The position numbers and the translations under genes were made by a program. Source: Flectobacillus sp. BAB-3569 (GTDB lineage Bacteria; Bacteroidota; Bacteroidia; Cytophagales; Spirosomataceae). Taken from it: a stretch of DNA of 64,000 nt. The stretch spans positions 124,001 through 188,000 of the forward strand of contig NZ_NJFZ01000009.1 in NCBI RefSeq assembly GCF_002270355.1. The letters are read 5' to 3'. The notes beneath the pieces were generated by a model. That model was not told the DNA's origin and searched no databases. It saw nothing but the letters and a program-made list of their open reading frames with translations. Shown one piece after another: positions 3,375 through 51,690 of the stretch (the stretch's first letter is position 1; each line of letters opens with the position of its first letter).

Positions 3375-3442
3375 GCGAATTGTGATTGAGTGTGTGAAGA
3401 TGAACCATTTGAAAAGTCTTCAATCACTCAATCACAATTCGC
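3375..3442. terminator. Long palindromic repeat between convergent galT and cytochrome c
   Basis: The arms 3375-3392 and 3425-3442 are perfectly complementary over 18 bp, with a 32-nt loop. The placement between two convergent stop codons suits a bidirectional transcription stop or mRNA 3' stabiliser, but there is no T run as in a standard intrinsic terminator. The arm motif (CACTCAATCACAATTCGC) is a variant of a repeat seen in other spacers near 12.5, 23.3, 38.2 and 38.4 kb. Confidence 0.65.
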
Positions 3443-3451
3443 CACAGATGC

Positions 3452-4435
3452 CTATATTTCAGAAGTAAATTTGACAACCTTATTTTTTACAGGTTTTATA
3501 CTTTTGAGGTAGGTATAAATAGCTTCTATATCTTTTACCTTCATACCACTGTACATAGTCCAAGGCATCATAGTTTGAAATTGACCTTTGCCAACTTTTG
3601 GTGATTGGTAGGTGCTATCTGCATAAGCTTTGAATCTAGCTACAAACGCTTCTTTGGTCCATTTTCCTATCCCTGTTTCAGGGTCTGGTGTAATATTGGG
3701 CGAAACCAGTGTCCCGTATCCTGGCATTGGGAATACGAACCCTCCTGCATAATCCATTCCCGGTACTTTTCCTCCTTTATCATCTGGTTTTGTATGGCAT
3801 TCTCTGCAAGAAGCTATCGTAATTAAGTATTCTCCATACTTTAGCACATCATCTTCACGAGGTTTGGACATTGCTTTAGCTTTCTGCGGAATGGTATTAA
3901 TGATAAAATTCATTGGAAAATCTGAGGTAGAAGGAGGCGGTGTATTTTCAAGGGGTTTTAGTGTTCTGATATATGCGATAATATCATTGGCATCTTGAGG
4001 ATCCATCGAGGCGTAATAAGGGTATGGCATAATAGGAAAAAGTGCATGTCCGTCTTTACTCACACCAGTGGTCATAGCTCTATAAATTTCACCATCTGTC
4101 CAATTTCCAAGACCCGAAGGAGTGATATTCTTGGCAGTATAGCTGCCAGGGAAACCTAAGCGATGATCGAAGGTTTCGCCGCCTTTGCCTTCTGTACCTG
4201 CAATAGGAGGGGCAGCGAATAGGGTATAATCCCTCGTACTGTGACAGTCAATACAAACCGCCACGTGATTGGCTAAGTATCTACCATTTTCGATAGAGGC
4301 AGCGTTGGGTTTAATACTAATCTCAGGAGGAGGACCCACATCGGGCAGGGCAAGGGATACGTAGGATAGGATGCCGACGATTCCGATTATTACTATTGCA
4401 AAGAGTAATAAAAGAATTTTAGGTAGTTTTTTCAT
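3452..4435 (-). CDS. Diheme c-type cytochrome, membrane-anchored
   Basis: Predicted electron carrier on the periplasmic face of the inner membrane. Residues 7-29 form one hydrophobic N-terminal anchor or uncleaved signal. Two haem-binding motifs follow, CIDCH at 61-65 and CRECH at 210-214, each heading a cytochrome c domain with Met-rich candidate axial-ligand segments (MPYPYYASM; MMPWTMYSGM). The layout resembles the cytochrome subunits of membrane alcohol/aldehyde dehydrogenases, but no dehydrogenase subunit is adjacent, so the electron donor is unknown. The gene is monocistronic and convergent with galT. Confidence 0.9.
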   Translation of the reverse strand: MKKLPKILLLLFAIVIIGIVGILSYVSLALPDVGPPPEISIKPNAASIENGRYLANHVAVCIDCHSTRDYTLFAAPPIAGTEGKGGETFDHRLGFPGSYTAKNITPSGLGNWTDGEIYRAMTTGVSKDGHALFPIMPYPYYASMDPQDANDIIAYIRTLKPLENTPPPSTSDFPMNFIINTIPQKAKAMSKPREDDVLKYGEYLITIASCRECHTKPDDKGGKVPGMDYAGGFVFPMPGYGTLVSPNITPDPETGIGKWTKEAFVARFKAYADSTYQSPKVGKGQFQTMMPWTMYSGMKVKDIEAIYTYLKSIKPVKNKVVKFTSEI

Positions 4436-14457: not shown

Positions 14458-14801
14458 GATGCTTTAGGCTTTAAGCAAACTTTTATGCATTCATGAGAAA
14501 TGTTTTTCCGTGAGCCCATAACTGGGAGCCGAAAGCCCAATAGTCGCTAACTAAGCTTATTTTTTATCAATCAAAAACAATCAACAATCTCAAATTTACT
14601 CTAAATGCCTTTTTTCTATAAATCAAAATCACCTCCGATGAGTGGAGACATCTTTGAAATCTCGCTCAAATAAAAAAAGCCGACGGTGCTACCAACACCA
14701 TCGACTTATTCTTGTACATCCGAAAGTTTCTCAGGCTTTTCATCAAGATTCTTGATGGACAGGATGCTTTATGTCAGTTTTTCAACCAACCAATCAAAAT
14801 T
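14458..14801. other. Leader and spacer upstream of susC
   Basis: A 344-bp spacer without a gene. The left part (14465-14560) holds degenerate GAGCCGAAAGCCC-like repeat text. An imperfect hairpin lies at 14677-14707 (CGACGGTG ... CACCATCG, 10 pairs with two mismatches), about 95 bp before the ATG, and may be a leader structure or weak terminator. No standard promoter box was seen, which would fit ECF-dependent transcription. Confidence 0.45.
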
Positions 14802-33469: not shown

Positions 33470-33775
33470 TTTCAGTGGCAAAGTGAACAGGCACAAAGGG
33501 ACAAAGGGTATTTCATTTTAGTGGTATAGTGAACAGGTGTAAAGGTACAAAGTGTTTGTTATTTCAGTGATAAAGAAATAGGCGTAAATGCACAAAGTGT
33601 TTGCTATGACAGGGGTATAGTGAACAGGCACAAAGGCATTAAGTGTTTGTTATGTCAGTGGTAAAGTGAACAGGCACCAATATATCAAGTGTTTGTTATT
33701 TCAGTGATAAAGAAATAGGTGTAAAGGCACAAAGTGTACAATGTTTTCACTTTGTGCCTTTGTGCCTTTACACTA
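33470..33775. repeat. Tandem array of six 45-46-bp units plus an inverted partial unit
   Basis: Unit phase points fall at 33474, 33520, 33566, 33611, 33657 and 33703, giving periods of 46, 46, 45, 46 and 46 bp. Each unit is a diverged copy of a CAGTGGTAAAGTGAACAGGC / GGCACAAAGTGTTTGTTA pattern. A reverse-complement partial copy (33748-33775) follows and includes the stop codon of the convergent acyltransferase. Units are contiguous with no unique spacers, so this is not a CRISPR array. Confidence 0.85.
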
Positions 33776-44034: not shown

Positions 44035-44619
44035 ATGGAAAATATAAAAATAATAAAGAGACGCTCTGATGATAACTGGATAGTTCGTTTACCTAGGAGG
44101 ATGGAACATCTCACCAAACAAAACATACAACCAAGTAATAGAAATATTCAACCTAAAAGGTTTAATCCAGCCAAGAGCTTACACAATATCCTAAAAAGTA
44201 CTTCTCTAAAAGTAGAGACTTACCGAAAGTATTATACAAAACCTTACTTATCTGAGGGAGGTGTTATTTCTTTTCCTGTAAGAGGAAAGAGAGACTTGAT
44301 ATTAATTGTTGAAAAAGTTTATGAGGAAAGTCCCAACTCAACTATTGAGATTCTAGAGTATAATAGTGAGCGTCCTTCACACCATGCAAAGAGTTTAGAA
44401 GAGGTTGAAACCGCACTTCAAAATTCAACTCAAGGAATTCTTGAAATAGCAAATAAGAGTCTCGCTAACGCTTACCAAGAATCAAAGGATAAAGGATTGA
44501 CCGTCTGTGTGTTGAGAGGAAATGAAATTGTAGAAGAGTTTTCTGATGGCACAACCAATATTCTCAAAAAGATTAGTCCAAGAAAAAAAATAGTATCTAG
44601 AACCTTTACACTTAAATAG
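44035..44619 (+). CDS. Hypothetical partner gene of the zeta-like kinase (possible antitoxin)
   Basis: A 194-aa soluble protein. Residues 1-45 are basic. The C-terminal third has ANKSLANAYQESKDKGLTVCVLRGNEIVEEFSDG, which resembles the short segment (A-x-x-E-H-x-x-x-G-x-x-I-x-V-W-R-D-G-K-V) I know from small genes placed directly before zeta-type kinases. It ends in TAG immediately followed by the TTG start of the kinase, so the two are translationally coupled. An antitoxin role is inferred from this layout, not shown. Confidence 0.75.
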   Translation: MENIKIIKRRSDDNWIVRLPRRMEHLTKQNIQPSNRNIQPKRFNPAKSLHNILKSTSLKVETYRKYYTKPYLSEGGVISFPVRGKRDLILIVEKVYEESPNSTIEILEYNSERPSHHAKSLEEVETALQNSTQGILEIANKSLANAYQESKDKGLTVCVLRGNEIVEEFSDGTTNILKKISPRKKIVSRTFTLK

Positions 44620-45363
44620 TTGGCTACACTATATGTATTTGCAGGACCAAATGGTTCTGGTAAAAGCACTATCACTGAAAGTATTAAAAGTGAAGTTGAT
44701 ATAGGTATTTATTTGAATGCTGATGAGATAGAAAAATCACTCATAGAGAATAGATGTTTTAGTTTCAACTCTTTGATTAATTGGGAGATAGAAGAAGCCT
44801 CCTTTAAAGATTTTTGTAGAGGTCATGGTTTAAACAAAAAAGTATCTGACCCTGATTGGCTAGAGAAGATACATCTGCAAGACAATAAATTATTTTTGGA
44901 TGTAGGGCTAAATATCAATTCTTATCTGTCTGCGTTATTAGTTGATTTCTTACGTGTCGAGTTTATAAATCAAAAGGTGGATTTCAGCTTTGAAACTGTG
45001 ATGTCTCATTCCTCCAAACTGGATTTATTGAGCTCAGCAAAAGAGAATGGCTACAAAATAGTTTTATATTTCGTAACAACAGAAGACCCAATAATTAACG
45101 TAATGCGAGTGCAAAACCGTGTTGAAAAAGGAGGGCATACAGTTTCTGAACAGAAAATAATTGAACGTTATTACCGTTGTATGAACTTGTTAAACGAAGC
45201 TATTAAAATTTCTGATGAAGCATACTTATTTGATAACTCAGGCGATGGAGAAGCAGCTGCTTATTTTGCTAAAGTTTTAAATGGAGAAAATTTTATTTTT
45301 AGTGACGAATGTGAAGAATATCCTAACTGGGTTGACAGATATATAAGTAATCGTGAAGAATAA
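44620..45363 (+). CDS. Zeta-toxin-like P-loop kinase (COG4185 type)
   Basis: A 247-aa ATP-binding protein. Walker A is GPNGSGKST at 9-17; later motifs of zeta-like kinases appear: YLNADEIEKSL, DFSFETVMSHSSKLDLL (normally FETTLS), GYKIVLYFV, and RVQNRVEKGGHTVSEQKIIERYYRCMNLL. Members phosphorylate UDP-sugars or other substrates, and some are toxins. The gene starts at TTG directly after the partner stop, with no ATG before the P-loop. A copy of a palindromic repeat begins about 25 bp after its stop. Confidence 0.88.
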   Translation: MATLYVFAGPNGSGKSTITESIKSEVDIGIYLNADEIEKSLIENRCFSFNSLINWEIEEASFKDFCRGHGLNKKVSDPDWLEKIHLQDNKLFLDVGLNINSYLSALLVDFLRVEFINQKVDFSFETVMSHSSKLDLLSSAKENGYKIVLYFVTTEDPIINVMRVQNRVEKGGHTVSEQKIIERYYRCMNLLNEAIKISDEAYLFDNSGDGEAAAYFAKVLNGENFIFSDECEEYPNWVDRYISNREE

Positions 45364-45969: not shown

Positions 45970-47373
45970 ATGAGTAATTCAGCAAGTACCTTGTTCGACA
46001 AAGTGTGGGATGCACACGTTGTTCGCAAAATTGAAGATGGTCCAGACGTATTTTTGATTGACCGCCACTTCATTCACGAAGTAACTAGCCCAGTGGCATT
46101 TTTGGGTCTTGAAACGAGAGGCATTAGTGTGCTTTATCCGGAAAGAACTTTCGCTACTGCTGACCATAACACGCCAACTATCAACCAACACTTACCTGTA
46201 GAGGATCCACTTTCTGCTAATCAGTTGAAAGCTTTGGAGACAAACACAGCAAAGTATGGTATCTCTCACTGGGGATTAGGTAACCCTAAAAATGGTATTG
46301 TACACGTGGTAGGACCAGAAAATGGTATTACTCTTCCGGGTATGACTATCGTTTGTGGTGACTCTCATACGTCTACTCACGGTGCATTTGGTGCAATTGC
46401 CTTTGGTATTGGTACATCTGAAGTTGAGATGGTACTTTCTTCACAATGTATCATGCAACCTAAGCCTAAGAAAATGCGTATCACTATCAATGGTACCTTG
46501 GGTAAAGGTGTTACACCAAAAGACGTTGCTTTATTCATTATCTCACAAATTACAGCATCAGGTGCTACAGGATACTTTGTAGAATATGCTGGTGAGGTAT
46601 TTGAAAATATGTCGATGGAAGGTCGTATGACTGTGTGTAACCTTTCTATTGAAATGGGTGCTCGTGGTGGTATGATTGCTCCAGACCAAACTACTTTCAA
46701 TTATTTGGAAGGTCGTGAGCTAGCGCCAAAAGGCGAAGCTTGGGAAAATGCTTTGGCTTACTGGAAAACTTTGAAGACTGACGAAGGTGCTACATTCGAT
46801 CATGAATTGACTTACGAAGCTTCACAAATTGAACCTCAAATTACTTACGGTACAAACCCAGGCTTGGGTACAGGTATCACACAAAAAATCCCTACTGCAT
46901 CAGCGGTAAAAGATGGCGAAGCTTCTTACAAGAAATCTTTGAACTACATGGGATTTGCTGAAAATGAGGAAATTATCGGTAAACAAGTTGACTACGTATT
47001 CTTAGGAAGCTGTACAAACGGTCGTATTGAAGACTTCCGTGCATTTGCTTCAATCGTAAAGGGACGTAAGAAAGCTGATAACATCACAGCATGGTTGGTG
47101 CCAGGCTCTCATATTGTTGAGGCTCAAATTAAAGAAGAAGGTATCTTAGATATCTTGACAGAAGCAGGTTTCTTGTTGCGTCAGCCAGGATGTTCAGCAT
47201 GTTTGGCTATGAACGACGACAAAATTCCAGCTGGCAAATATGCAGTAAGTACTTCAAACCGTAACTTCGAAGGACGTCAAGGCCCAGGCTCACGCACACT
47301 ATTGGCATCGCCATTAGTAGCCGCTGCCGCAGCAGTTACAGGTGTTGTTACTGACCCTAGAGAGCTATTGTAA
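45970..47373 (+). CDS. leuC: 3-isopropylmalate dehydratase large subunit
   Basis: With LeuD isomerises 2- to 3-isopropylmalate. An aconitase-type protein of 467 aa with [29 protein letters not shown], the three [4Fe-4S] Cys ligands in [11 protein letters not shown] and [11 protein letters not shown], and the final [15 protein letters not shown]. First gene of the operon leuC, four-helix gene, leuD, leuA/cimA, four-helix gene, leuB. The spacer after it carries one arm of a repeat that brackets the inserted four-helix gene. Confidence 0.97.
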
Positions 47374-47857
47374 TTTTAGCTTTCGGCTGTAGGCTTTCAG
47401 CAATCGGCAAATTTTCTACACTCTTCAAAATATCTTAACCTTATGAGGGACTTTAGAAAACTTCATATTTGGCGACAAGCACATGAGATTTGTTTATTGA
47501 TTTATAAAGAAACTCAATTGTTTCCAATTGAAGAGAAATACGGAATTACTTCACAATTGAGAAGAGCCGCTGTTTCTGTTCCTAACAATATTGCTGAAGG
47601 TTGTGGTACAATCGGAGAAAAAGAATTTGCCAGATACCTGAAAATAGCCTATAGTTCAGCTTCAGAGGTTGATTATTTGTTGTTATTATGTTACGATTTA
47701 GGTTTTTTGTCTAAGGAAAAGCATGAACTACTATTTTCTAATCTCACATCGCTGAAAAAACAGATTTTTAGTTTTATTATAAAATTAAATGCTGAAAGGA
47801 TTTAGGTGTTAGCCTTTTATCGAAAGCTGACAGCCCATACCCGACAGCCCTCAAAAA
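47374..47857. mobile_element. Putative inserted unit 1: four-helix-bundle gene bracketed by inverted repeat arms
   Basis: The leuC-leuD spacer is 484 bp and holds one ORF in the operon direction. The left arm GGCTGTAGGCTTTCAGC (47385-47401) is complementary with gaps to the right arm (GCTGACAGCC at 47826-47835 and ACAGCC at 47844-47849), so the gene sits in the loop of an imperfect hairpin. The arm motif is the CTGAAAGCC/CTTTCGGC family also found between leuD and leuA. I call it a mobile unit only tentatively; no target duplication was identified. Confidence 0.5.
47443..47805 (+). CDS. Four-helix-bundle protein (23S rRNA intervening-sequence / S23 family)
   Basis: A 120-aa helical protein with the family pattern: FRKLHIWRQAHEICLLIYKET, then the diagnostic YGITSQLRRAAVSVPNNIAEGCG and FARYLKIAYSSASEVDYLLLL. 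Relatives are encoded in 23S rRNA intervening sequences, in Avd-like accessory genes of retroelements, and in many Bacteroidota spacers; they are thought to bind nucleic acid, and their role is not settled. It lies inside the leu operon in the same direction, within inverted repeat arms. A second member of the family is 2.7 kb downstream. Confidence 0.92.
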   Translation: MRDFRKLHIWRQAHEICLLIYKETQLFPIEEKYGITSQLRRAAVSVPNNIAEGCGTIGEKEFARYLKIAYSSASEVDYLLLLCYDLGFLSKEKHELLFSNLTSLKKQIFSFIIKLNAERI

Positions 47858-48454
47858 ATGGCTTACGATAAATTTCAAATATTAACTTCAACAGCTGTTC
47901 CGTTGCCATTGGAAAATGTGGATACGGATCAAATTATCCCTGCTCGCTTCTTGAAAGCGACTAAACGTGAAGGATTCGGAGATAACCTTTTCCGCGACTG
48001 GCGTTATAATGGTGACGACTCTCTTAAGCAAGATTTCGTTCTAAACAACCCAACTTACTCAGGTAAAATCTTAGTAGCAGGTCGTAACTTCGGTTCAGGT
48101 TCTAGCCGTGAACACGCTGCTTGGGCTATCTATGACTACGGTTTTCGTTGTGTAGTTTCTAGCTTTTTTGCAGATATCTTCAAAGGTAATGCCTTGAATA
48201 TCGGTATCCTTCCAGTACAAGTTAGTCCTGAGTTTTTGGACAAAATCTTCCAAGCTATCGAAGCAGACCCTAAAGCAGAATTAGTTGTTGACCTTCCAGC
48301 TCAGACTATCTCGATTGCTGCCACTGGAGAAAGCGAAAGTTTTGCTATCAACGGTTACAAAAAACATAATATGCTGAACGGTTTTGATGACATCGATTAT
48401 TTACAATCAATGAAAGAAGAAATCAAAACATTCGCAGAGAAGAGTTTGTACTAA
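47858..48454 (+). CDS. leuD: 3-isopropylmalate dehydratase small subunit
   Basis: Swivel domain partner of LeuC, 198 aa. Visible signatures: [19 protein letters not shown] near the N terminus and the substrate loop [23 protein letters not shown]. It normally follows leuC closely; here a 484-bp spacer with a four-helix gene separates them, yet both stay on the same strand. A strong hairpin follows its stop. Confidence 0.97.
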
Positions 48455-48465
48455 TATAGCACATG

Positions 48466-48537
48466 GCTTTCGGCCATCAGCTATCGGCATCAGCATTAAA
48501 TTTTTTTGCTGAAAGCCTATAGCTGATGGCCGAAAGC
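48466..48537. repeat. Large palindrome between leuD and leuA/cimA
   Basis: The left arm 48466-48494 and right arm 48508-48537 form a stem with 19 consecutive perfect pairs (GCTTTCGGCCATCAGCTAT with its complement), then GGC and TCAGC pairs, loop 13 nt and A/T-rich. Another copy of AGCCATCAGCT follows at 48542-48552, ending at the next start codon. It contains no ORF. The motif matches the arms around the four-helix gene of unit 1. Confidence 0.85.
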
Positions 48538-48553
48538 TGTTAGCCATCAGCTA

Positions 48554-50067
48554 ATGAGACATATCGAAATTATGGACACCACTCTCCGCGATGGAGAACA
48601 AACCAGTGGTGTATCTTTTTCCGCTCCCGAAAAACTGACAATTGCACAACTTCTGTTACAGGAAGTAAAAGTCGACAGAATTGAGATTGCTTCTGCTAGA
48701 GTATCCGAAGGCGAATTCCAAGCTGTAAAAAAAGTTACAGAGTGGGCTTCCGAAAATGGATTTATCGATAAGGTAGAAGTATTGACATTTGTCGATGGAG
48801 AAACCTCAGTAAATTGGATGCTGGAGGCAGGGGCTAAAGTAATGAATTTGCTTACCAAAGGTTCCCTCAACCACCTAACCCACCAACTCAAAAAACACCT
48901 GAGCAACATTTTTCAGATATTGCTAAGGTTATCGAACTCGCTGGTTCAAAAGGTATTGATTGTAATGTTTATCTCGAAGACTGGAGTAATGGAATGCGTA
49001 ATTCTCAGGAATACGTATTACAATATTTAGATTTTTTGACGAAACAACCTATCAAAAGAGTCCTTTTGCCTGATACGCTTGGGGTTTTGACACCAAGAGA
49101 AACATTCGAGTATATCGATTTGTTGGTGAAGCGCTATCCAAATACGCATTTTGACTTTCATGCACACAACGATTACGATTTGAGTATCGCCAATGTGATG
49201 GAAGCCATCAAAGCGGGAGCTCATGGCTTGCATTTGACAGTGAATGGTATGGGCGAGCGAGCTGGCAACGCCCCTCTCTCGAGTGCTATTGCTATTATCA
49301 ATGACTTTATGAAGGAGGAGGCTACAACTTCTGTTAATGAAAGTTCATTGTATACCATTAGTAAATTGGTTGAAACATTCTCTGGTTTCCGTATTCCTGT
49401 GAACAAGCCAATTACTGGTGAGAATGTATTTACACAAACTGCAGGTATTCATGCAGATGGCGACAACAAAAAAAATCTTTACTTCAATGACTTGATGCCA
49501 GAGCGTTTTGGTCGTCAACGTAAATATGCATTGGGTAAAACCTCAGGCAAAGCTAATATTGAGAAAAATCTTCAGGAGCTAGGTATTAAATTAGATGATG
49601 CCGATCTCAAGAAAATCACTCAACGTATTATTGAACTAGGCGATAGAAAAGAGGTGGTAACGCGTGAAGATTTACCATACATTATTTCCGACGTTCTTGA
49701 TAGCAATACTATTGAAGAAAAAGTCATTGTATTGAATTATGTATTGACACATTCTAAAAACCTTAAACCTTCTGCTACAGTTCAAGTACAAGTTCGTGAG
49801 AGAATTTATGAGGAAAGTGCTCAAGGAGATGGTCAATATGATGCTTTTATGAATGCCTTAAAAAAGATATACTGTCTCAAAGGTGTTTCATTGCCAAATC
49901 TTACCGATTATGCCGTTCGTATTCCTCCAGGTGGAAAAACCGACGCCCTTTGCGAAACTATCATTACATGGGATTACAATGGCAAAGAGTTTAAAACCAG
50001 AGGGCTAGATTCAGACCAAACTGTATCCGCAATCAAAGCGACACAGAAGATGTTGAATATTATTTAG
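48554..50067 (+). pseudogene. leuA: 2-isopropylmalate synthase / citramalate synthase family protein, frameshifted
   Basis: Condenses acetyl-CoA with 2-oxoisovalerate (LeuA) or pyruvate (CimA). The first frame (48554-49030) begins MRHIEIMDTTLRDGEQTSGVSFSAPEK and loses homology after an A6 run at 48890-48895; one added base joins it to TPEQHFSDIAKVIELAGSKGIDCNVYLEDW and on through DFHAHNDYDLSIANV and GERAGNAPLS. The C-terminal LeuA_dimer regulatory domain (about 365-504) ends with RGLDSDQTVSAIKATQKML. Total about 504 aa. LeuA versus CimA cannot be settled from the sequence; the operon favours leucine synthesis. The indel is likely a sequence error. Confidence 0.85.
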
Positions 50068-50619
50068 TTAGGTTCAAAGTGAATTAGGCACAAAGGCACA
50101 AAGTGTGTTAAGTGCGTGGAGTACAATCAATAATATTCTTAGGTTAGCATCTATTCTACACTATGACACAAATAAAAAGTTTTAGAGATTTATTGGTTTG
50201 GCAAAAATCTATGAATCTTGTTACTGACATATATCAACTTACGAGAAATTTTCCTCAGGCGGAAATGTTTGGACTTACTTCTCAATTACGTAGAGCAAGT
50301 ATTTCAATTCCAAGTAATATCGCTGAAGGTTATGGACGAAATACTTCTAAGGGTTATCTTCGATATTTGCAGATTGCGCTTGGGTCGTTATACGAAATTC
50401 AAACTCAATTAGAGATAGCCAGTAACCTACATTTTCTTGAGATTTTTGATTTTAATAAGATGATAAGTTTGTGCTTAGAAATAGAAAGAATGTTAACGAG
50501 CTTAATCGCAAAAATAAAAGCTAAAATAGCTTAATATATAAATTTAGAATTAAAACTAAATAAAGGGATTATCCACTTTGTGCCTATGTGCCTTTGCGAC
50601 TTATCCCTATAATTATAAA
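50068..50619. mobile_element. Putative inserted unit 2: four-helix-bundle gene bracketed by inverted repeat arms
   Basis: The spacer leuA-leuB is 552 bp and holds one ORF in the operon direction. GGCACAAAGGCACAAAGTG at 50087-50105 pairs with 50574-50592 in 18 of 19 positions, placing the four-helix gene in the loop. The arm belongs to the GGCACAAAGG repeat family seen in the 33.5-kb array. As with unit 1, mobility is inferred. Confidence 0.5.
50163..50534 (+). CDS. Four-helix-bundle protein (23S rRNA intervening-sequence / S23 family)
   Basis: A 123-aa helical protein: SFRDLLVWQKSMNLVTDIYQLTRNFPQAEMFGLTSQLRRASISIPSNIAEGYGR, then YLRYLQIALGSLYEIQTQLEIA. It is clearly related to the gene at 47443 but diverged through much of its length, so the two are not a recent tandem duplication. 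It lies between leuA/cimA and leuB in the same direction inside inverted repeat arms. Function as for its relative: probable nucleic-acid-binding bundle, role unknown. Confidence 0.92.
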   Translation: MTQIKSFRDLLVWQKSMNLVTDIYQLTRNFPQAEMFGLTSQLRRASISIPSNIAEGYGRNTSKGYLRYLQIALGSLYEIQTQLEIASNLHFLEIFDFNKMISLCLEIERMLTSLIAKIKAKIA

Positions 50620-51690
50620 ATGAAAAAGCATATCTTAGTCGTTCCCGGTGATGGCATCGGACAAGAAGTTACCGCTGTAGGTAAAAAAGTATTAGAGAAA
50701 ATCGCTGAGAAATTCGGTCATGAATTTACTTATGACGAAGCGCTTATCGGTCACGTTGCTATCGAAGCTACAGGAGAGCCACTTCCTGCTGAGACTTTGG
50801 AGAAAATGCGTGCTTCTGATGCAATCCTTTTTGGTGCTGTTGGTCACATCAAATATGATAACGATCCACATGCAAAAGTTCGTCCTGAACAAGGATTGTT
50901 GAAAATGCGTAAAGAGTTAGGATTGTATGCTAACTTACGTCCTATCAAATTGTTTGATGAGTTATTAGAAGCATCAAGCATCAAGCCTGAAATCTTGAAA
51001 GGCGCAGATATCTTGTTCTTCCGTGAGTTAACAGGTGACGTATATTTCGGTAAAAGAGAACGTATCGAAGACGGAAATACAGCGTATGATACGATGATTT
51101 ATAGCAAATACGAAGTAGAGCGTATTGCTCGCAAAGCATTCGAAGCAGCTATGACTCGTGGTAAAAAATTAATGTCAGTTGATAAAGCAAACGTGTTGGA
51201 ATCTAGCCGTTTGTGGAGAGAAACTGTACAAGCAATTGCTCCAGAGTATCCAGAAGTAGAAGTAACACATCAATTTGTTGACTCTGCTGCGATGATGTTA
51301 ATCAAAGATCCAAAGCAATTTGACGTAGTCGTAACAGGTAACTTGTTTGGTGACATCTTGACGGATGAAGCTTCTCAAATTGCTGGTTCAATGGGTATGT
51401 TGGCATCTGCTTCAGTAGGTGACAGTACAGGTGTATATGAGCCAATTCACGGATCTGCACACGATATTGCTGGAAAAGGCTTAGCTAACCCAATGGCTTC
51501 TGTATTGTCAGCAGCGTTGTTGTTGGATATCTCTTTCGGCTTGAAAGAAGAAGCAAACGTAGTAATCAACGCAGTAGACCAAGTTCTAAAAGCTGGTTTC
51601 CGTACGGGCGATATCGCTACAAAAGATACTCCTAAAGATATGATTTTGGGAACAGATGCAATTGGAGAAGAAATTTTGAATAGAATCTAA
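50620..51690 (+). CDS. leuB: 3-isopropylmalate dehydrogenase
   Basis: NAD-dependent oxidation and decarboxylation of 3-isopropylmalate. Landmarks are VVPGDGIGQEV near the start, the LRPEQ-type region (KVRPEQGLLKMRKELGLYANLRP), RELTGDVYFG, the DxxxD metal site in FGDILTDEASQIAGSMGMLASAS, and EPIHGSAHDIAGKGLANP. The ATG at 50620 (MKKHILVVPGDGIG) gives 356 aa, the usual length; the in-frame extension to 50578 reads through the repeat arm. Last gene of the leu operon, followed by a terminator. Confidence 0.97.
   Translation: MKKHILVVPGDGIGQEVTAVGKKVLEKIAEKFGHEFTYDEALIGHVAIEATGEPLPAETLEKMRASDAILFGAVGHIKYDNDPHAKVRPEQGLLKMRKELGLYANLRPIKLFDELLEASSIKPEILKGADILFFRELTGDVYFGKRERIEDGNTAYDTMIYSKYEVERIARKAFEAAMTRGKKLMSVDKANVLESSRLWRETVQAIAPEYPEVEVTHQFVDSAAMMLIKDPKQFDVVVTGNLFGDILTDEASQIAGSMGMLASASVGDSTGVYEPIHGSAHDIAGKGLANPMASVLSAALLLDISFGLKEEANVVINAVDQVLKAGFRTGDIATKDTPKDMILGTDAIGEEILNRI

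Follow-up and report, generated by a model that had tools for sequence, protein, structure and literature searches.

In a window of 64,000 nucleotides from Flectobacillus sp. BAB-3569 (contig NZ_NJFZ01000009.1, positions 124,001 to 188,000), two small genes of the PF05635 family, here called IVP genes, lie in the spacers of a leu operon, each between inverted arms that can pair. Extending the analysis to other bacteria showed that genes of this family are accompanied by such arms in many bacterial groups, that the repeat unit of the arms goes with the protein lineage and that hairpins of the same repeat families also lie dispersed without a gene, with a tendency to be found in genomes that have it. 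On balance, we lean towards the explanation that each unit is a small gene inside a long-range hairpin, a messenger RNA (mRNA) counterpart of the intervening sequences (IVSs) of 23S rRNA, in a partnership with its repeats like that of RAYT proteins with repetitive extragenic palindromic (REP) sequences.

Paired arms around IVP genes in the window and in other bacteria

IVP gene 1 (47443–47805, forward strand, 120 aa) and IVP gene 2 (50163–50534, forward strand, 123 aa), belonging to clades A and B, respectively, matched PF05635 in Pfam with 118 and 136 bits (cut-off 33.8), and TIGR02436 in NCBIfam, the source of the name “four helix bundle” for both. In unit 1 the best local pairing joins a 5′ arm of GCTNTNRGC heptads (about 47379–47411) with a 3′ arm at about 47816–47848. 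In unit 2 an inverted-repeat search and a shuffle test identified a 5′ arm of AGGCACAA octads (50086–50105) and a 3′ arm (50574–50593), each of 20 nt, with a complementarity of 95%; all arm positions are given for the forward strand. The arms of unit 1 are imperfect and weaker than those of unit 2, having been missed by a stricter inverted-repeat search and found by the shuffle-based pairing test. When the flanks of each unit were dinucleotide-shuffled 300 times, no shuffle matched the pairing score of that unit (p = 0.003, the minimum attainable); together with the profile matches, this bears out a sequence-only reading that had placed two four-helix-bundle genes within inverted arms in the leu operon. 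RNA folding, with the coding part included, was also better for both units than for any of 100 shuffled versions (z −3.7 and −3.9). When pairings with 3′ arms from other loci served as the reference, unit 2 ranked at the top (0.02) and unit 1 did not (0.29), as expected if the repeat family of unit 1 is common to many other loci.

Paired arms were then counted, at p < 0.01 against shuffles, in several gene sets. For a multi-phylum set, one genome per species was scanned, giving at least 572 confirmed relatives, the 80 with the best scores being retained; by title, these loci come from Bacteroidota, proteobacterial groups, Nitrospirae, KSB1, SAR324, Acidobacteria, Planctomycetes, Clostridia, Spirochaetes, Cyanobacteria and candidate phyla. 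Three of the 80 were dropped (one for unresolved bases and two for short flanks), and paired arms were found around the IVP gene at 52 of the 77 testable loci, as against 7 of 229 control open frames (110 codons or longer) from these loci (Fisher p about 1e-31). An Rfam search of 20 of the 80 loci returned no match at the IVP genes. As a separate observation, two Acido-Lenti-1 RNA matches (3489–3534 and 4062–4107) lie close to the IVP gene at one locus from a KSB1 genome (L215).

Among spirochaetes, a match was present in 34 of 149 genomes and paired arms in 13 of 26 tested loci (14 with other shuffles), the frames having been chosen by profile and loci without a profile match excluded; one spirochaete IVP relic (L358) was placed between 23S and 5S rRNA. 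The cyanobacterial set covered one order, that of a Rivularia record, with matches in 87 of 120 genomes and paired arms in 33 of 38 tested loci (32 with other shuffles), nine of the 38 being from one genome. One of these loci (L370) is most likely the same gene as a multi-phylum locus (L281), judging from identical arms in the same genome. Closer to the window, five genomes of the genus and 121 of the family were searched, with the window genome included in both. Full-length units in leu slots, gene fragments excluded, had paired arms in 39 of 50 cases, comprising 16 of 23 units with IVP and 23 of 27 with GxxExxY (PF13366), a protein of the PD-(D/E)XK family; in the family outside leu slots, paired arms accompanied 29 of 33 IVP and 13 of 25 GxxExxY genes. 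The earlier expectation that other copies of the gene would also carry arms thus held for the larger part of those tested and for only half in spirochaetes. Its framing, of IVP genes in hairpin arms, stood as far as it went and was too narrow, since GxxExxY, which is unrelated to IVP, occupies the same leu slots with similar arms.

The orientation of the genes was compared with that of their neighbours. IVP ran in the same direction as co-directional flanking frames in 59 of 64 multi-phylum cases, in 30 of 33 family cases outside leu and in 15 of 16 spirochaete cases, as did GxxExxY in 17 of 18; for cyanobacterial IVP the count was 17 of 29, which is no bias. In leu spacers, each of the 58 cargo matches, with the pieces of a broken gene counted singly, followed the operon direction. 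These counts indicate that life in an operon is common for such genes and not required.

Repeat units, protein lineages and gene-free hairpins

The arms are degenerate tandem repeats, with a best period of 7 in 28 and of 8 in 21 of the 52 multi-phylum loci with paired arms, and of 7 in 30 of the 33 cyanobacterial ones; the arms of GxxExxY have a period of mostly 8 or 10. Protein distance and unit distance were correlated in the multi-phylum set (Mantel r 0.26 over 37 loci, 0 of 999 permutations as high), in multi-phylum pairs under 60% identity (r 0.14, p 0.002) and in the family set (r 0.31, p 0.002). Protein pairs of at least 60% identity without detectable homology between their flank proteins shared the repeat period in 34 of 37 cases, with corresponding values at lower identity of 81/147 (50–60%), 171/418 (40–50%) and 23/42 (below 40%). 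Specifically, heptads of the GCTNTN type surround the clade-A proteins of the leuC–leuD slot, and a KSB1 bacterium (L247) whose protein clusters with clade A likewise has arms of GCTNTN-type heptads.

Both repeat families of the window also occur without any gene. In the leuD–leuA spacer the heptad family forms a hairpin without a gene (48466–48537), its arms at 48466–48488 and 48515–48537 being 96% complementary, and two-unit heptad matches lie at 14461–14476 on the forward strand and from 32037. Gene-free octad copies are found within 33489–33767, with a forward two-unit match at 33489 and a reverse one from 33750. Across the window genome (6.6 Mb, with five PF05635 matches in total) there are 16 heptad and 42 octad exact three-unit matches, partly overlapping, in agreement with the earlier proposal that the arms come from two repeat families of this genome that are also present without genes. 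None of 13 octad-pattern stretches read in this genome had an IVP gene. The window contains further intergenic hairpins at 3375, 31884 and 38166 whose periodic arms have other unit sequences.

Repeat families and genes tended to be found in the same genomes. The three-unit octad pattern was present in 10 of the 121 family genomes, namely in all seven with a leuA–leuB IVP and in 3 of the 114 others; octad matches outside the unit were found in five of the seven and again in 3 of 114 or, counted by genus, in 3 of 4 vs 2 of 32 (p 0.005). The three-unit heptad pattern, with matches inside units included, occurred in 39 of the 121 genomes, covering 21 of 24 with a clade-A IVP (at a cut-off of 137 bits) and 18 of 97 without. 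In the window genus, heptad matches numbered 16, 13 and 12, and octad matches 42, 20 and 23, in the three species that have the genes, and the other two species had no three-unit match of either kind; these two congeners carry other PF05635 genes, none of which reached E 1e-20 with the clade-A profile. By genus, the association agreed in g20, g22 and g27, was weak in g32 and silent in g31. As for a putative dependence of the repeat family on the gene, the association is strong, genera g32 and g36 being the exceptions.

Within the arms, both the phase of the repeat unit and the polarity of the strands were analyzed, the former in arms with a clear period. In multi-phylum 5′ arms, a purine-G pair occupied a fixed place in 0.93 of the units vs 0.74 of units with permuted letters (33 arms), and in leu-slot IVP in 0.90 vs 0.63 (13 arms); with weaker or absent effects in other sets, the phase rule is partial. 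The polarity, with the G-rich strand in the 5′ arm on the sense strand of the gene, was more regular. Arms with a unit value of at least 0.8 numbered 29/33 for 5′ vs 4/33 for 3′ arms in the multi-phylum set, 8/13 vs 1/13 in the family outside leu, 10/13 vs 5/13 in leu IVP, 21/25 vs 1/25 in cyanobacteria and 4/8 vs 0/8 in spirochaetes. In gene-free stretches with the octad pattern on both strands, the G-rich arm came first, by eye, in all eight fetched (L291, L292, L295, L296, L297, L299, L305 and L307).

IVP and GxxExxY units in leu operon spacers

Both window units are situated between leu genes and outside any 23S rRNA gene. Unit 1 is flanked by leuC (45970–47373) and leuD (47858–48454), and unit 2 by leuA (48554–50067, in two frames, 48554–49030 and 48994–50067) and leuB (50620–51690), all on the forward strand; leuC, leuD and leuB were assigned from the open reading frame list and Pfam. 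Leu operons were taken from 100 of the family's other 120 genomes, making 101 with the window, and were read with the IVP and GxxExxY profiles; the spacer counts take in the window and gene fragments. Among the 100 readable leuC–leuD spacers, IVP was present in 18 and GxxExxY in 11; of those with neither, 67 did not exceed 200 bp and 4 were longer. The corresponding numbers were 7, 16, 55 and 12 for 90 readable leuA–leuB spacers and 1, 0, 91 and 2 for 94 readable leuD–leuA spacers. The suggestion that relatives might have the leu genes joined without the insert was thus confirmed in 67/100 and 55/90 spacers at the two sites. In two genomes of the window genus (G002 and G004), the leuC–leuD spacer measures 187 and 92 bp and the leuA–leuB spacer 420 and 382 bp, respectively, neither of the latter containing an open frame of 50 codons.

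In protein trees, the slot label changed 8 times for IVP vs a shuffled mean of 21, and 8 vs 25 for GxxExxY, indicating slot-specific clades and not scatter; many leu-slot units therefore look like old residents that are often lost. By eye, an arm is left without an intact gene at two loci (L061 and L088) and beside a GxxExxY unit at two others (L071 and L078). The dN/dS values were between 0.02 and 0.15 in 10 of 11 pairs, denoting purifying selection, and dS was saturated in the eleventh. The leuA–leuB slot is also occupied in Niastella populi, one Chitinophagaceae genome and one Flavobacterium metagenome-assembled genome. Exact insertion points could not be read, as occupied and empty leu spacers are too divergent. 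Between this species and genome G001, the DNA of leuC and leuD is 94% identical and the IVP proteins of the unit 1 slot share only 44% identity, which suggests that gene and arms of unit 1 may have been swapped. The IVP tree separates the window and G001 proteins, and their joint grouping was not rejected in an approximately unbiased (AU) test (p-AU 0.08; 0.09 for unit 2) on a tree from which L004 and L016 were excluded.

Some further observations concern the same operon. The leuA–leuB spacers of L067 and L071 (about 690 bp) contain a HepT-like frame, the L067 protein having been assessed by profile scan, and the L071 frame ahead of the HepT-like gene is by eye what we take, from its motif, to be nucleotidyltransferase-like; a toxin-antitoxin pair thus probably uses the same landing place as IVP and GxxExxY. 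In several GxxExxY units (L056–L058 and others) the 5′ arm repeats seem, by eye, to extend into the first codons. The two parts of leuA are 105 bases apart in the window, one fewer than the 106 seen in every one of the 93 relatives that have both, so that the split would stem from an error in the assembly or from a break of recent date. Upstream of leuC, at 44035–45363, there are two genes, the second of which (44620–45363) is Zeta-toxin-like (PF06414, 35.6 bits) and the first without a Pfam match; these could be a toxin-antitoxin pair.

Interpretation of the units

The units share features with several known systems. As in REP/REPIN-RAYT systems, there is one gene per repeat family in the window genome, flanked by palindromic repeats that are also dispersed gene-free, and the gene lineage goes together with the repeat family. 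RAYT proteins are HUH nucleases. Pfam and NCBIfam scans of IVP1 and IVP2 gave no nuclease or transposase domain, so that the chemistry cannot be that of RAYT; the units further differ in having no HUH (Y1) match, a Pfam assignment to PF05635 with a weak bAvd match, and arms made of tandem 7- or 8-mers. The idea of a REP/RAYT-like pairing is supported, with exceptions, by the link between lineage and repeat family. A remote likeness to Avd of diversity-generating retroelements is seen in the weak matches of IVP2 to bAvd (34.5 vs a curated cut-off of 40, Pfam) and DivGenRetAVD (24.3 vs 80, NCBIfam); as both scores are under their cut-offs, an identity with Avd was rejected, and the genes directly beside the window units are leu genes. 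A role in anti-phage defence was likewise rejected, PADLOC giving only weak matches (Cmr5 at E 0.009 for IVP2, Cas4 at E 0.004 for GxxExxY and none for IVP1).

The closest parallel is the IVS of 23S rRNA. In Coxiella burnetii, RNase III is reported to cut the 23S IVS in its stem in vitro, the S23p gene is preceded by two or three GACAGAT heptamers in tandem, and the origin and function of rRNA IVSs are called unclear (PMC4990558). The window units share with it a PF05635 protein, a gene between complementary ends and, in the case of Coxiella, heptamers upstream of the gene (PMC4990558); they differ in lying in protein-operon spacers, RNase III excision being reported, in the sources consulted, for rRNA IVSs alone. 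The arms also resemble the dispersed heptamers GGGAATC of Xanthomonas and GGGGA(T/C)T of Nostoc, which in the text consulted are discussed in connection with quadruplexes, in being dispersed repeats with a G-rich strand (PMC4692102). Convergent GGGAATC pairs number 70 and 75 in two Xanthomonas genomes, and few GGGGA(T/C)T pairs are given for Nostoc in the same text (PMC4692102). The main text of that article makes no mention of S23, 23S or xcc0516, and no link to IVP was seen in it. Among the papers listed by full-text searches, which for the most part do not cover subscription papers, none links PF05635 or GxxExxY genes to such arms in its title or the opening of its abstract.

The favored explanation, of a gene in a long-range hairpin that partners its repeats, can be divided into three steps held with decreasing confidence. 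IVP, probably an oligomer without a known nuclease domain, would recognize the periodic G-containing strand of its own arms. The solved relatives 2gsc and 2rld were deposited with five chains each, which fits an oligomer; Avd is a pentamer. With less confidence, this recognition may maintain or spread the units and the gene-free hairpins, as RAYT does with REP. With least confidence, pairing of the arms on either side of the gene in the transcript might loop the unit out of the leu message and allow RNase III to release it; the host operon would then suffer next to no harm from the insertion.

Other explanations were weighed against the same data. The arms could be a by-product of replication errors (slippage or hairpin-templated correction) in intergenic DNA, with genes lying between them by chance and a protein inert toward them. 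Their degenerate tandem repeats, the different repeat numbers (3 or 4) in copies of one element and the repeats without gene in some genomes are in keeping with such an origin, which nevertheless appears unlikely given that paired arms surround only 7 of 229 control frames vs 52 of 77 IVP genes, that the period follows the protein lineage without flank homology and that repeat families co-occur with the matching gene. Alternatively, the units could be cargo of miniature transposable elements moved by insertion-sequence transposases, with gene and arms as passengers. This is indeed how the IVP unit is placed in two cyanobacterial genomes, where it is seen within transposon-like ends. One genome (G334) has ten similar copies with one end in common, eight of them with both ends (13 nt, 12/13 pairing), 7-bp target duplications at seven of these eight and three or four heptads near the left end, and in the other (G316) a copy of 576 bp bounded by perfect 18-nt ends is present at two sites, one of them with a 10-bp duplication. 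As a general account it seems quite improbable, no transposon-type ends or duplications having been recognized in leu spacers when occupied and empty ones were compared by eye and without a systematic search. On another cyanobacterial contig (G282:C2), two loci (L420 and L421) are identical over 2381 bases, which would be either a long duplication or an assembly repeat.

We give still less credence to the possibility that IVP and GxxExxY serve the leu operon as functional accessory genes, such as regulators of leucine synthesis, with arms acting as attenuators or terminators. Slot-specific clades, purifying selection, the fixed operon direction and the use of the leuA–leuB slot in Niastella populi, the Chitinophagaceae genome and the Flavobacterium genome would all suit a leu function. 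However, IVP and GxxExxY are missing from most leu operons read, the two unrelated genes alternate in one slot, and leftover arms are found (by eye) beside or instead of a gene. A leu-specific function is ranked low mainly because 77 of the 80 multi-phylum loci are without leu genes; these are nearby in only 3 of the 80, yet paired arms are present in 52 of 77.

Several points weigh against the explanation that we favor. The action of IVP on the arms and the cutting of units by RNase III are inferred, and the transposon-like ends in G334 and G316 mean that movement there needs no IVP activity. All IVP gene sets are top-scoring matches and not random samples, 25 of the 77 multi-phylum IVP genes are without arms at p < 0.01, and cyanobacterial IVP genes show no preference for the sense direction (17 sense, 12 antisense). 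The Mantel correlation is of modest size. The phase rule is absent in family IVP outside leu (0.65 vs 0.67 in 13 arms; 0.80 when read backwards) and in spirochaetes (0.59 vs 0.56 in 8 arms), and the cyanobacterial value (0.93 vs 0.86 in 25 arms, p 0.012) is nearly equaled backwards (0.89). As for the association of repeats with genes, part of the 114 “other” genomes in the octad comparison were counted without a reading of the leuA–leuB slot, the clade-A cut-off was chosen after seeing the table, and the heptad counts take in matches inside units. In addition, genus g36 runs slightly opposite to the association, and many heptads occur without a clade-A gene in G035 (92), G103 (151) and G066 (66).

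A broader reading, which we put forward tentatively and think rather doubtful in its full extent, would see a bacteria-wide class of genes in hairpins in which a nuclease-free oligomer or a protein of the PD-(D/E)XK family recognizes arms with a period of 7, 8 or about 10 nt and drives its own unit along with swarms of gene-free hairpins; the 23S rRNA IVSs and the heptamers of cyanobacteria and Xanthomonas would then be special cases. If the favored explanation is true, a palindromic repeat family can have a non-nuclease protein as its partner. The tie between lineage and unit would make the function of PF05635, the rRNA IVSs and the heptamers of Xanthomonas and Nostoc testable by one type of assay, that of binding. 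PF05635 genes are widespread and, where measured, under purifying selection, and the design of gene plus arms may account for some DNA repeats that are so far unexplained.

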